A stretch of DNA of 64,000 nucleotides from Geobacteraceae bacterium (GCA_013336525.1 JAAXTM010000002.1:186001-250000), one strand, 5' to 3'. Counted from the first letter of the stretch, positions 7,806-43,535 are shown. A program made the numbers and translations. Notes: generated by a model from the sequence alone, not told the origin.

Positions 7806-7847
7806 TTTAACAAAAAAAACGGCCAAAAGGCCGTTTTTTTTGTTAAA
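7806..7847. terminator. Bidirectional terminator between FKBP gene and folD
   Basis: A long stem (TTTAAC, eight A, CGGCC pairing with GGCCG, eight T, GTTAAA) has an AAAA loop. A-runs and T-runs on both flanks let it act on both converging genes. Confidence 0.88.
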
Positions 7848-10851: not shown

Positions 10852-11000
10852 AAAAGCATTTACCGCAGAGTTCGCAGAGGAACGCAAAGTTAAAACAGAA
10901 GGTTCGTAAAAACAAGATATCGCCGCTTGGGCTTTACAGATTATTAGTATAATCACTTGTCTCTTCGGTTTCCTCTGCGTTCCTCTGCGGCCTCTGCGGT
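10852..11000. repeat. Inverted-repeat element, family A, empty site
   Basis: The left arm (10862-10889, ACCGCAGAGTTCGCAGAGGA onward) pairs imperfectly with the right arm 10971-11000, enclosing about 80 bases. The lead-in AAAAGCATTTACCGCAG (10852-10868) also flanks the element at 41.83-41.99 kb on the opposite strand. That copy has 23 extra bases immediately after CGCAG; here the sequence continues directly as AGTTCGCAGAGGAACGC. The element sits between pstA and pstB without breaking either gene. Confidence 0.75.
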
Positions 11001-11018
11001 GAAAAAGCCGTTTATACG

Positions 11019-39527: not shown

Positions 39528-39575
39528 GGCAGTCTCACTATTATGTGGATTAAAAAGGCTAATGTCTAAAAAACA

Positions 39576-39737
39576 GTTATCCGCAGATTAACGCAGCCAG
39601 AAGTAGGCGCTTCTAAGCGATATACGCAGACAAATCGAAGCGAGAGACATATGCTGGTTCAACCCAAAAGGTGAACTTAATTTATTGGTTTTATCTGCGT
39701 TAATCTGTGATATCTGTGGATCTACTGCCGTTTAAAG
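39576..39737. repeat. Inverted-repeat element, family B, with 23-bp module
   Basis: The left arm ATCCGCAGATTAACGCAG (39579-39596) pairs with the right arm around 39694-39721 (CTGCGTTAATCTGTGATATC onward). Immediately after the left-arm CGCAG is a 23-bp module (39597-39619, beginning CCAGAAGTAGGCGCTT and ending TAAGCG). The related copy at 43.4 kb lacks it. The module contains its own small palindrome, CGCTTCTAAGCG. The element fills the gap between the pyrophosphatase and rsgA. Confidence 0.75.
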
Positions 39738-39738
39738 G

Positions 39739-40638
39739 CTAATTTTTCCAGTCCCTGCTGCGTGCGGCGGCCTGGAGGGTTTCTACCTCTTTGAGGATTT
39801 CCATGTAGGTGGCGTATCTCTCCGCCGGGATTCTCCCCTGCTCGACAAGCTCCAGTACGGCACATCCCGGCTCTGTACGGTGCCGGCAGTTGCGGAATTT
39901 GCAGGCGACGTCCCGATGCGCTTCAAAGCCGGGAAAATACTCCGCCAACTCTTCTACCGTTATGTCAACCAAACCAAAATCGCGGAAACCGGGGGTGTCC
40001 ACAAGCTCGCCACCACCCGCAAGAGCGTGCAGCGTGGAAACCGTTGTGGTGTGTCGCCCCATACCCTTGTATTCACTCAAGCTTCCTACTTTAAGATCAA
40101 TTTCCGGACAAAGCACATTCAGCAGGGAACTCTTGCCGACTCCGGTCGTTCCGACAAAGGCGCCGCGATGACCTTCGCTCAAAAATTCCTCTAACGGGGC
40201 AAGTCCGCTCCGCTTGGCGGCACTGATCGGAAATATTCGCACGGAGCCGCCATAGATTCTTTTCAGCTCTTCCAGAAGTTCTGCTGTGCCATCAAGATCA
40301 CATTTATTGACGACTAAAAATGGCTGTAACTTTGCCGACTGGGCAGCAACAATCGCCCGGTCGATAAAACCACCAGGTGACAGCGGCGCAACAACGATCC
40401 CGAGGACATCGAGGTTTGCGCCTACCAGATGGACTCCTCCCCTGGCATCACGCCGCTGCAGCTCCGTCCGGCGCGGCAAACGTTTCAAAACCTCGCCGGT
40501 AACAACAACGTTGTCCCCGACGACATGGCCGGAGTTGCGTTTGACCCGCACCATTCTGCGCTGGCCGTTGTCAAACAAGACCTCAACCGAGATACCGTGA
40601 TGCGCAACTATCAGACCGTTAGGCGTAAAACTGCTCAT
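39739..40638 (-). CDS. rsgA: Ribosome small-subunit maturation GTPase RsgA
   Basis: Circularly permuted GTPase that acts late in 30S assembly. An N-terminal OB-fold (about residues 5-70) is followed by the permuted G domain with NKCDLDG (G4, near 110) before GTTGVGKSSLLN (G1, near 163) and DTPGFRDFG (G3, near 214). A C-terminal zinc site follows: Cys in VACKFRNCRHRTEPGCAV near 246-263. The length of 299 is normal. Divergent from srkA. Confidence 0.95.
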   Translation of the reverse strand: MSSFTPNGLIVAHHGISVEVLFDNGQRRMVRVKRNSGHVVGDNVVVTGEVLKRLPRRTELQRRDARGGVHLVGANLDVLGIVVAPLSPGGFIDRAIVAAQSAKLQPFLVVNKCDLDGTAELLEELKRIYGGSVRIFPISAAKRSGLAPLEEFLSEGHRGAFVGTTGVGKSSLLNVLCPEIDLKVGSLSEYKGMGRHTTTVSTLHALAGGGELVDTPGFRDFGLVDITVEELAEYFPGFEAHRDVACKFRNCRHRTEPGCAVLELVEQGRIPAERYATYMEILKEVETLQAAARSRDWKN

Positions 40639-40817
40639 TGGATTGTGTTCCGATTTTTCAAATGGATTATCCCGACCGGAGTTGCCGGGATTAAATGGCT
40701 ATCTTGACAGCCGTTTATAAATCTAGCATACAAACAGACAATAACCTAGCACAGCAGGGAAAATCAGGCCATAATATCTACTCTATTGATCAATGCCGCA
40801 CAAGAGGACGCATTATT

Positions 40818-41804
40818 ATGACTGAGAGCCACCATCCATTTATGCGACTTACCCCCACCTTTGTCATGGACGCCGTGGAAAGCCAGGGCTTTGTCTGTGA
40901 CAGCCGTATATTCGCACTCAACAGCTACGAAAACCGGGTCTATCAGGTCGGCATCGATGAAGCGCAACCGTTGATTGCCAAATTTTACCGGCCACATCGC
41001 TGGAGCTCAAAGCAGATTCTGGAGGAGCACAGCTTCTGCTTTGAGCTTGTCGAGCACGAACTCCCTATTGTTGCGCCTCTGAAGAATAGCGAGGGTGAGA
41101 GTTTGTTGCAGTATGATGGTTTTCACTTTGCACTTTATCCACGGCAAGGGGGGCATGCACCGGAGTTTGACAATCTCGACAACCTGAAAATACTGGGGCG
41201 ATTGCTCGGGCGGATTCACGGCACCGGTGCGGTAAAGCCGTTTGCTCATCGTCCGACACTGGATCGCCAGAGTTTCGGCACTGAGAGCGTACGCCTGATT
41301 GAAGAGCGTTTTATCCCCGAGGAATACCGGGCCAGTTATACCGCTGTGACCAGGCAGTTGTTGGAGGAAATTGATGCCATCCTGGCTGAGGTCGGCCCGG
41401 TCCGGATCATCAGGACGCACGGAGATTGCCATGCCGGGAATATTCTCTGGCGCGACAACGCCCCGCATTTTGTCGATTTTGACGACGCCCGCATGGCACC
41501 TGCTGTTCAGGATCTCTGGATGATGTTTTCCGGGGAACGCCCACGTCAGCTGGCCCAGCTGGATTCGTTACTGGAAGGGTACCGGGAATTCAATGATTTT
41601 GATCCCCGTGAACTGCGCCTGATTGAGCCGCTCCGCACGTTGCGCATGCTGCATTACAGCGCCTGGCTGGCCCGGCGCTGGCAGGACCCGCTGTTTCCGC
41701 ATACTTTTTTCTGGTTTAACACCACCCGCTACTGGGGTGAACATATTCTGGAATTGCGCGAACAGTTGGCCGCGCTCTCTGAGCCGGCTCTTGAAGTGCA
41801 GTAA
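40818..41804 (+). CDS. srkA: Stress response kinase SrkA (YihE/RdoA)
   Basis: Ser/Thr protein kinase of the aminoglycoside-phosphotransferase fold; in E. coli it protects against stress-linked cell death. ATG 40818 has AGAGGAC about 9 bases upstream and begins MTESHHPFMRLTPTFVMDAV; the longer frame from 40695 is not needed. The catalytic loop is RTHGDCHAGNILW near residue 200, and the metal-binding FVDFDDARMAP near 218. The 328-residue length matches the family. Confidence 0.92.
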   Translation: MTESHHPFMRLTPTFVMDAVESQGFVCDSRIFALNSYENRVYQVGIDEAQPLIAKFYRPHRWSSKQILEEHSFCFELVEHELPIVAPLKNSEGESLLQYDGFHFALYPRQGGHAPEFDNLDNLKILGRLLGRIHGTGAVKPFAHRPTLDRQSFGTESVRLIEERFIPEEYRASYTAVTRQLLEEIDAILAEVGPVRIIRTHGDCHAGNILWRDNAPHFVDFDDARMAPAVQDLWMMFSGERPRQLAQLDSLLEGYREFNDFDPRELRLIEPLRTLRMLHYSAWLARRWQDPLFPHTFFWFNTTRYWGEHILELREQLAALSEPALEVQ

Positions 41805-41825
41805 TCAACCTACAGACGGAGTTGC

Positions 41826-41989
41826 ACCGCAGAGGACGCTGAGTAACACTGAGAAAACAAGTAGATATTGTAATTGTGGGTGTCTCCAATAAGGTGAGTC
41901 GCTTTATGTTTTAACCTTCTGATTTTCCTCGGCGTTCCTCTGCGTACTCGCTTAAAAGCGCCTACTTCTGGCTGCGGTAAATGCTTTTT
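41826..41989. repeat. Inverted-repeat element, family A, with 23-bp module
   Basis: The left arm (ACCGCAGAGGACGCTGAGTA, 41826 onward) pairs imperfectly with the right arm ending near 41944 (TTTTCCTCGGCGTTCCTCTG). Read on the - strand, AAAAAGCATTTACCGCAG is followed by a 23-bp module (41971-41949), then AGTACGCAGAGGAACGC. The same flanks at 10.85 kb are contiguous except for one base. The module differs from that at 39597-39619 by one base. Confidence 0.75.
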
Positions 41990-41998
41990 TGGGATTAA

Positions 41999-43351
41999 TT
42001 ACGATGCAAAGATTACATCCATCGCGCCCTGAACCGTAGAAACCCCCTCCAGGCGGATGCCCCGTTTTTTAAGACGCTTCAGGCTGCCGGCCGGAATAAT
42101 GCAGCGCTTGAAACCAAGCTTTTCGGCTTCGGCAATACGTAATTCCGGCTGCGTAACCGCCCGCACCTCCCCAGCCAGGCCCACTTCACCGAATATAACC
42201 GTATCAGGCGGTATGGCCTTGTCGAGGTGACTTGAGGCAACGGCCATAATCATGGCCAGGTCGGCTGCCGGCTCGTTCAGCCTTGCCCCGCCAGCCGCAT
42301 TTAAAAAGATATCCTGTCCCGCCATGTGCAGACCAACCTTCTTTTCCAGAACAGCAACCAGCAAAGCCAGACGATTATGATCAACACCAATGGTGGTCCG
42401 GCGTGGGACACCGTAGGAAGATGGCGTTACCAGCGCCTGAAGCTCAACCAGCAGTGGCCGGCTCCCCTCCAGCGAAGTGGTGACGACGGAACCGGAGACA
42501 CCGAGGGGGCGCTCGGAAAGAAACAGCTCCGAAGGGTTTGCGACACCGCAGAGCCCCTCCTGTTTCATCTCGAAGACTCCAATTTCATTGGTCGAGCCAA
42601 AACGGTTCTTGACCGCCCGCAGGATACGGAACGGATGGCTGCCGTCCCCCTCGAAATACAGAACAGTGTCAACCATATGCTCCAGCACGCGCGGTCCGGC
42701 AATCGAGCCATCTTTGGTGACATGACCAACGATGAAGATCGGGATATTACTCCCTTTGGCAAGCAGCATAAGTTTACCGGCCGATTCCCGCACTTGGCTG
42801 ACGCTGCCGGGGGCCGACTCCAGGGTTGAGGTCCAGACCGTCTGGATCGAGTCAACCACCATCGCCGCAGGCTTGAGTGCAGCAGCCTGGTGAAGGATCG
42901 CTTCGAGCGAGTTTTCAGCCAGAATCAGCAGGTTTTTGCTTGAGGCACCGAGGCGTTCACCCCGCAAGCGGGCTTGAGAAGCGGACTCCTCGCCTGAAAC
43001 ATACAGCACCTTTCCCGCTTCCTCCGCCAGAGTGTGCATCGCCTGCAGCAGCAGCGTTGATTTTCCAATTCCGGGATCGCCGCCAATCAGCACCAACGAT
43101 CCGGGGACAATGCCTCCTCCCAGCACCCGGTCAAGCTCTCCGATGCCGGTCGGCCTGCGTGTCTCCGTCTGTGGCGGTACATCACAGATCGGTATGGGGA
43201 GCACGTTCCCGGCTGAACGGGTCGCATTTGAAACCTTGATGACCGCCTCTTCCACTAGACTATTCCAGGCCCCGCAGTCCGGACATTTTCCAAGCCACTT
43301 GGGCGATTGGCTGCCACACTCCTGGCAGGTAAAGATTGTTTTCTGCTTCAT
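41999..43351 (-). CDS. radA: DNA repair protein RadA
   Basis: RecA-like branch-migration helicase for recombinational repair. An N-terminal zinc finger (CQECGSQSPKWLGKCPDC, residues 9-26) is followed by Walker A GGDPGIGKSTLLLQ near 89, the RadA-specific KNRFG motif near 247, and a Lon-like C-terminal domain (about 275-450). The 450-residue length is typical. The end of the gene lies 9 bases beyond the family A repeat. Confidence 0.96.
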   Translation of the reverse strand: MKQKTIFTCQECGSQSPKWLGKCPDCGAWNSLVEEAVIKVSNATRSAGNVLPIPICDVPPQTETRRPTGIGELDRVLGGGIVPGSLVLIGGDPGIGKSTLLLQAMHTLAEEAGKVLYVSGEESASQARLRGERLGASSKNLLILAENSLEAILHQAAALKPAAMVVDSIQTVWTSTLESAPGSVSQVRESAGKLMLLAKGSNIPIFIVGHVTKDGSIAGPRVLEHMVDTVLYFEGDGSHPFRILRAVKNRFGSTNEIGVFEMKQEGLCGVANPSELFLSERPLGVSGSVVTTSLEGSRPLLVELQALVTPSSYGVPRRTTIGVDHNRLALLVAVLEKKVGLHMAGQDIFLNAAGGARLNEPAADLAMIMAVASSHLDKAIPPDTVIFGEVGLAGEVRAVTQPELRIAEAEKLGFKRCIIPAGSLKRLKKRGIRLEGVSTVQGAMDVIFAS

Positions 43352-43377
43352 ACACCCCTCTCGTACATATAGACCTT

Positions 43378-43535
43378 AAAAGCAGTTATCCGCAGATTAA
43401 CGCAGATATACACAGATAAATCAAAGACTTGAAACAAATACTGGTTTAACAAAAAAGGAATACTTGCTTTTTAAATAAACATTTATTTTATCTGCGTTAA
43501 TCTGTGAAATCTGCGGATCGACAGCCGTTTACAGG
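43378..43535. repeat. Inverted-repeat element, family B, empty site
   Basis: The left arm ATCCGCAGATTAACGCAG (43388-43405) continues directly as ATATACACAGATAAATC and pairs with the right arm near 43489-43519 (TATCTGCGTTAATCTGTGAA onward). It is the module-free counterpart of 39576-39737. It occupies much of the 418-base gap 43352-43769; in the remaining 43536-43769 stretch I see only AT-rich leader sequence, with TTGTATACTAGATATG at about 43648. Confidence 0.75.

Follow-up and report, generated by a model that had tools for sequence, protein, structure and literature searches.

A precisely bounded, apparently mobile 23-bp GTAG hairpin within inverted repeats of a Geobacter-like genome and of other bacterial phyla

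Insertion sequences of the IS200/IS605 type, such as IS608 and ISDra2, insert in one orientation and without target duplication, carry a subterminal hairpin with a guide tetranucleotide and use a fixed tetra- or pentanucleotide as target. In Nostoc, small dispersed repeats of 21–27 nt, reportedly described by Elhai and colleagues in 2008, are said to be mobile and to be located inside other repeats. To our knowledge, no experiment shows single REPs moving alone. REPs cleaved by TnpA-REP have a GTAG tetranucleotide 0–2 nt from the stem (PMC6006769, PMC8266576), and some GTAG REP families are inserted in palindromes, as in A. variabilis and T. roseum (Di Nocera et al., 2013, PMC3733652). One of the families named in the latter source is GTAG-11, of Geobacter uraniireducens. 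In the Marinomonas REPtron Mb, belonging to group 3 TnpA-REP, 2 nt separate GTAG from a perfect stem of 5 bp, the loop is TTTA, and the enzyme cuts at CT and CA (PMC8266576).

The window, that is, the whole 64,000-nt stretch of DNA analysed, corresponds to C15:186001-250000 of the 3.50-Mb genome of a Geobacter-like member of the Desulfobacterota. It contains two copies of a 23-bp module with the local consensus CC(A/G)AAGTAGGCGCTT(C/T)TAAGCG, and these copies, with their strands and C/T variants, as well as the empty junctions in one family A and one family B inverted repeat, were found exactly where the original prediction had placed them (Table 1). The search of the whole genome, allowing up to 3 mismatches, gave 27 matches and its reversed-pattern control 0, and the number expected by chance in the 64-kb window was 0.00, which rules out chance or an artefact as the origin of the module. 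Its layout over 173 distinct sites was CC(A/G)(A/G)AA-GTAG-G-CGCYT-NT-ARGCG, comprising a 5' extension (CCRRAA), the GTAG tag, one spacer G, a 5-bp stem and a 2-nt loop, with a total of 23 nt; CCRRAAGTAGGCGCYTNTARGCG was the broader form used across genomes. The inner palindrome CGCTT..AAGCG, also predicted, proved to be real and covaries with CGCCT..AGGCG. At the variable stem pair (pair 4) of the 173 sites, T-A was present in 88, C-G in 69, T-G in 15 and C-A in only 1, compared with about 36 C-A expected under independence, and because of this covariation the stem must be regarded as maintained. The module is a real and precisely bounded 23-bp hairpin whose mobility is strongly supported; carrying no gene, it is apparently among the smallest mobile DNA units.

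Table 1. Location of the module copies, their host inverted repeats and related loci (window coordinates unless a contig or locus is given)
Feature	Position	Strand	Observations
Module copy 1	39597..39619	+	C variant CCAGAAGTAGGCGCTTCTAAGCG; 3' of word 2 (CGCAG) in a family B host arm
GTAG tag, copy 1	39603..39606	+	REP-like guide position, 1 nt 5' of the stem; from the sequence and comparison with PMC8266576 and PMC6006769
Hairpin CGCTT-CT-AAGCG, copy 1	39608..39619	+	From the sequence and stem covariation
Module copy 2	41949..41971	-	T variant CCAGAAGTAGGCGCTTTTAAGCG; 3' of word 1 (CCGCAG) in a family A host arm
Family B host, filled	39574..39731		Missing from the closest relative G009, where 39552-39739 is replaced by about 8 bp
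Family A host, filled	41829..41980		Corresponding spot of G009 occupied by a module-free inverted repeat whose word differs, ACACAAAG
Family A host without module	10859..11003		Empty junction 10868/10869
Family B host without module	43379..43530		Empty junction 43405/43406; entire host missing in G009
Module in the CCCCTCCTA...TAGGAGGGG palindrome	L035, L042, L053, L055, L059, L107, L128, L153, L155, L180
GxxExxY loci	G000:C22:67475, C12:140523, C15:645539, C11:4255, L380-L405		Arm words CACAGAG, CACGGAG, CGCAACG, CACGAAT and many others

Comparison with GTAG REPs (PMC3733652) revealed as common traits the GTAG tag, a short, perfect and covarying stem, T-G pairs, a 2-nt loop and the presence of tens of mostly intergenic copies in several phyla. 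The superfamily is defined by GTAG or GTGG 0–2 nt 5' of a perfect stem-loop, here GTAG-G-CGCTT-YT-AAGCG, by dispersed and mainly intergenic copies in the tens, here 27 and up to 85 elsewhere, and by GTAG as the outer terminus, which in the module is instead CCRRAA, starting 6 nt earlier. Unlike GTAG REPs (PMC3733652), the module is a unit defined by these 6 fixed nt 5' of GTAG, occurs mostly as singletons and has exact empty sites, many host families and no linked RAYT. It would be a novel GTAG REP-like variant or, if it corresponds to the GTAG-11 family, a new member of a described kind. With respect to the Marinomonas REPtron Mb, the module is alike in that a single nt separates its GTAG from a stem of 5 bp, topped by TYTA, and differs in ending at purine^CC and GCG^A instead of the CT and CA cuts and in having no such enzyme gene linked.

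The module also resembles IS200/IS605 elements (IS608, ISDra2) in its hairpin with a guide-like tetranucleotide and in its oriented, strand-specific insertion without target duplication; unlike them, it is geneless, has a single hairpin in 23 nt and uses an R^A target, with no insertion 3' of a fixed word of 4–5 nt among 173 sites. When both host arms were filled, for example at L113, L136 and L178, the two modules were in facing orientation and had their GTAG tags on the outside, a layout also seen in REPINs (PMC3116915). In a REPIN, however, the mobile unit consists of two inverted REPs, whereas singletons are the rule for the module and its pairs, confined to hosts with both arms filled, are two insertions into the arms of a pre-existing inverted repeat. 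The terminal inverted repeats and target duplication typical of MITEs are absent from the module. Finally, the Nostoc small dispersed repeats resemble it in size and habit, the only traits on which we base this likeness, and differ from it in that the module spans several non-cyanobacterial phyla.

The ends of the module were R^CC at the 5' side and GCG^A at the 3' side. Over the 173 distinct sites, the preceding base was a purine in 169 and the following base A in 164, no target duplication of 4 nt or more was detected around the module, and only R^A was conserved as target, with no fixed word of 4–5 nt. All 27 genomic copies sit within the arms of periodic inverted repeats, preceded by CGCAG, CGCAA, CGCCG, CCGCGA or ACGG and followed by A. 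The flanking words over all sites included CGCAG, CGCCG, CCGCGA, CACGG, CACGAA, CACAG, CGCAACG and CCTCCTA. The CGCAG or A-TACGCAG context that had been proposed as the target was therefore too narrow, and CGCAG as the sole target is rejected in favour of purine^A, pre-existing inverted repeats being strongly preferred; CGCAG is simply a word of the local host repeats, other words being used elsewhere. Unrelated hairpins also host the module, e.g. CCCCTCCTA/AATAGGAGGGG. The palindromic repeat CCCCTCCTA...TAGGAGGGG, which is widespread, is one of these hosts, and in it the module follows CCTA (or CCTG) and sits at the top of the hairpin or close to it (Table 1).

Orientation was examined through the position of the opposite host arm. 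At a score of at least 11, this arm was recognised only 3' of the module in 101 of 164 sites and only 5' in 2, while 2 sites had it on both sides and 59 had it on neither; with a threshold of 10, it was downstream in 111 and upstream in 4, the shuffled control giving 4. The 5' end of the module is thus almost always directed toward the outer end of the host where the opposite arm is recognisable, and the ratio of 101 to 2 indicates that the module is oriented wherever a host repeat can be recognised. A lagging-strand bias is a further trait of IS200/IS605-type insertion. By GC skew, 17 of the 27 genomic copies are on the C-rich strand and 10 on the G-rich strand, so that a strict lagging-strand insertion is unsupported.

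In addition to the empty hosts of the window, the alignment of near-identical family B/D hosts, once the module was removed, showed that it occupies word 2 in some, word 3 in others, both words in L011 and none in further ones, the module-free hosts being those at window position 43375 and at C15:393889; a more divergent host copy (C15:148019) was likewise empty. The tandem pair of L011 is formed by two distinct module variants and is therefore hardly a product of tandem duplication. Within a sample of 450 kb, 5 modules were located in periodic inverted repeats, of which about 11 were counted by reading the list together with the module search. Moreover, in a Sulfuricellaceae MAG (L131) the module breaks an IS91-family transposase gene. 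Excising exactly 23 bp restores the transposase frame, LELIDKIAALIPPPR, the homolog being LELIDRIAALVPPPR; the frame without the 23 bp reads LTPLELIDKIAALIPPPRAHRHRYYGVLAPNSPLR and that of a plasmid homolog LTPLELIDRIAALVPPPRTHRHRYFGVLAPNSPLR. Insertion is therefore precise also outside host repeats, and the module boundaries are confirmed both by the empty sites and by this gene. Taken together, the empty hosts, the differing sets of filled words (2, 3 or both) and the interrupted IS91 gene show that the unit itself moves.

It could be argued that the module is immobile by itself, travelling merely as a passenger of the inverted repeats that host it and being transferred among these through gene conversion. 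Family B copies at position 2 are mostly of the CCAG variant and those at position 3 of the CCAA variant, the composite of ccgccgatgaacgccgatacacgccg and module recurs in several genomes, and the hosts are themselves mobile, as they are missing at orthologous sites of G009 and one has a 10-bp direct repeat. However, an exact-ended unit is found at different words of one family, next to unrelated words, in unrelated hairpins and in the IS91 coding gene, no donor flank is brought along with it, and the Sulfuricellaceae insertion already contradicts the proposal, which we consider highly improbable. Gene conversion limited to the two sites of the window, in turn, is ruled out by the 27 genomic copies and at least 118 further stretches elsewhere; neither of the two refuting outcomes named in the original prediction came about.

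The mobility of the hosts was studied by comparison with G009, the closest relative by radA (89%). The entire host repeat was missing there at 39.5 and 43.4 kb, and at further orthologous sites host and module were missing or replaced by other sequence. Among the sites compared, no G009 ortholog had the host without the module, since the host was missing or other sequence was present, twice another inverted repeat; the window host at 10.85 kb had no match in the G009 stretches compared. At one locus (L001 1391-1541 against L361 of G009), host repeat and module lie between 10-bp direct repeats, AAGAAGTAAA, which is single in G009 and corresponds to a target duplication of the host element. AAAGGCTAAT is likewise present at both sides of the filled family B host (39554-39563 and 39734-39743), possibly as a host target duplication. 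At two orthologous intergenic spots (41829-41980 against L356 of G009, and L008 against L366), the arm words of the two species differed, CGCAGAGG as against ACACAAAG or AACACGGAG, indicating either repeated insertion at one place or concerted rewriting of both arms. At 7806-7847 of the window, a perfect inverted repeat of 19 bp, its loop 4 nt long and accompanied by a run of T, is terminator-like.

The same kind of periodic inverted repeats was observed bracketing GxxExxY (PF13366, PD-(D/E)XK-like) genes, with an inverted-repeat score of at least 10 in 21 of 26 loci compared with 3 in shuffled controls (Table 1). The short host repeats look MITE-like and also look like gene-less versions of these GxxExxY-bracketed elements. 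Since the hosts are also mobile, some module copies are passengers and the number of copies overstates that of independent insertions, for which reason insertion events were counted solely as distinct combinations of family and word position. Reading of the flanks gave an estimate, rather than a computed figure, of at least 12 insertion events in this genome.

The module was present in 18 of the 39 genomes of the relatives search, this genome included, with 0 to 27 copies per genome; G009 has one imperfect copy. Its distribution within the phylum was patchy: of 118 genomes sampled, 5 had the module, and two of these, carrying 8 and 21 copies, belong to a distant family. The broader form was found in at least 118 further stretches, whose sources were Desulfobacterota, Gammaproteobacteria, Betaproteobacteria, Nitrospirota and a single Bacillales MAG. 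Module-rich genomes included a Nitrospiria (85 copies), a Nitrospirae MAG (51) and Crenothrix (45). The viral contigs searched gave 0 matches, and phage carriage was rejected on this basis; none of the papers searched by sequence contained the module or the host arms. The proposal of a small mobile unit is strongly supported, since the module occurs in many families, at many positions and in several phyla, empty sites exist, and one insertion cleanly interrupts a coding gene.

The strong conservation of the module, its T-G stem pairs, as in transcribed REPs, and its intergenic placement near gene ends could also be explained by a function under selection in transcribed hairpins, as a terminator, an RNA-processing site or a protein-binding site. 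Against such an add-on are the presence of the module in a transposase gene that it disrupts and in numerous unrelated contexts and a copy number that ranges from 0 to 27 between species of the genus, and it leaves the exact insertion unexplained. As the whole explanation it seems quite unlikely to us, and a function could exist on top of mobility.

A transposase of the RAYT type was looked for as a candidate to move the module. Among the loci scanned, which were the best-scoring Y1 (PF01797) matches of this genome, of the genus and of module-rich genomes outside it, no Y1 gene was flanked by a module pair, and single copies were about 0.7–0.9 kb from a Y1 gene at two loci (L270 and L271). On the Y1 loci scanned, the module is thus rejected as the repeat of a classical REPtron, in which the RAYT/Y1 gene is flanked by the repeat. 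A classical REPtron was observed at L190 (G003:C36), with a RAYT-sized Y1 gene (197-aa frame) and several GTAGCCGTGGGATTCATCCCACGG hairpins nearby, and it was recognised by the same flank scan. The Y1 proteins were of 280–340 aa in this genome and two Nitrospirota, one was of 223 aa in G012, and those of Crenothrix were mainly IS200 types; no single Y1 type is common to the module-rich genomes. Against the NCBIfam model of REP-associated tyrosine transposases, this genome's two long Y1 proteins gave 66.7 and 68.6 bits, below the curated 80-bit cut-off. Candidate Y1 proteins of this genome include a 332-aa and a 280-aa frame, at G000:C11:665564 and C11:5813.

These results leave room for a 23-bp unit mobilised by a non-Y1 enzyme, either from the host-repeat system, e.g. 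the GxxExxY gene, or another hairpin-acting factor. Every local copy lies within arms of the host repeats, host-type repeats bracket GxxExxY genes as described above, and no scanned Y1 gene is linked to the module. However, G009 and G018, which are nearly empty of the module, also have GxxExxY, whereas the module-bearing G039 and G046 yielded no match to it, unrelated hairpins and an IS91 gene also contain the module, and GTAG with a hairpin points toward Y1 recognition. Such an enzyme is, in our opinion, unlikely.

Our preferred reading, which we regard as reasonably probable, is that the module is a 23-nt geneless REP-like mobile hairpin served in trans by an HUH/Y1-type enzyme and also copied with its host repeats. 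Its insertion is exact, with a purine on the 5' side and A on the 3' side, restricted to one strand and free of target duplication, and takes place mainly in inverted-repeat elements able to form hairpins. It would move as folded single-stranded DNA, and a candidate HUH/Y1-type enzyme (IS200/IS605- or TnpA-REP-like) would recognise GTAG and the stem. Once inside a host repeat, it is copied along when that repeat moves. The GTAG tag beside a hairpin, the orientation on one strand and the lack of target duplication match TnpA-REP and IS200/IS605 enzymes; against a Y1 enzyme are the lack of a linked Y1 gene, the mixed Y1 types, the lack of a fixed tetranucleotide and the 6 fixed nt before GTAG. 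Single-stranded transposition is something that we infer. That the module represents a new minimal class of mobile DNA, a 23-nt hairpin with an intrinsic 6-nt leader crossing phyla by purine^A insertion with an enzyme outside the RAYT/REPtron arrangement, is a tentative possibility.

The spread of REPs and other tiny repeats is an open question, given that movement of single copies is undemonstrated and precise empty sites are rare. For the module, the 23-bp boundaries are exact, numerous filled as well as empty sites are available, one insertion is in a coding gene and there is a consensus across phyla; its substrate, cleavage points and candidate enzymes are therefore directly testable in vitro.
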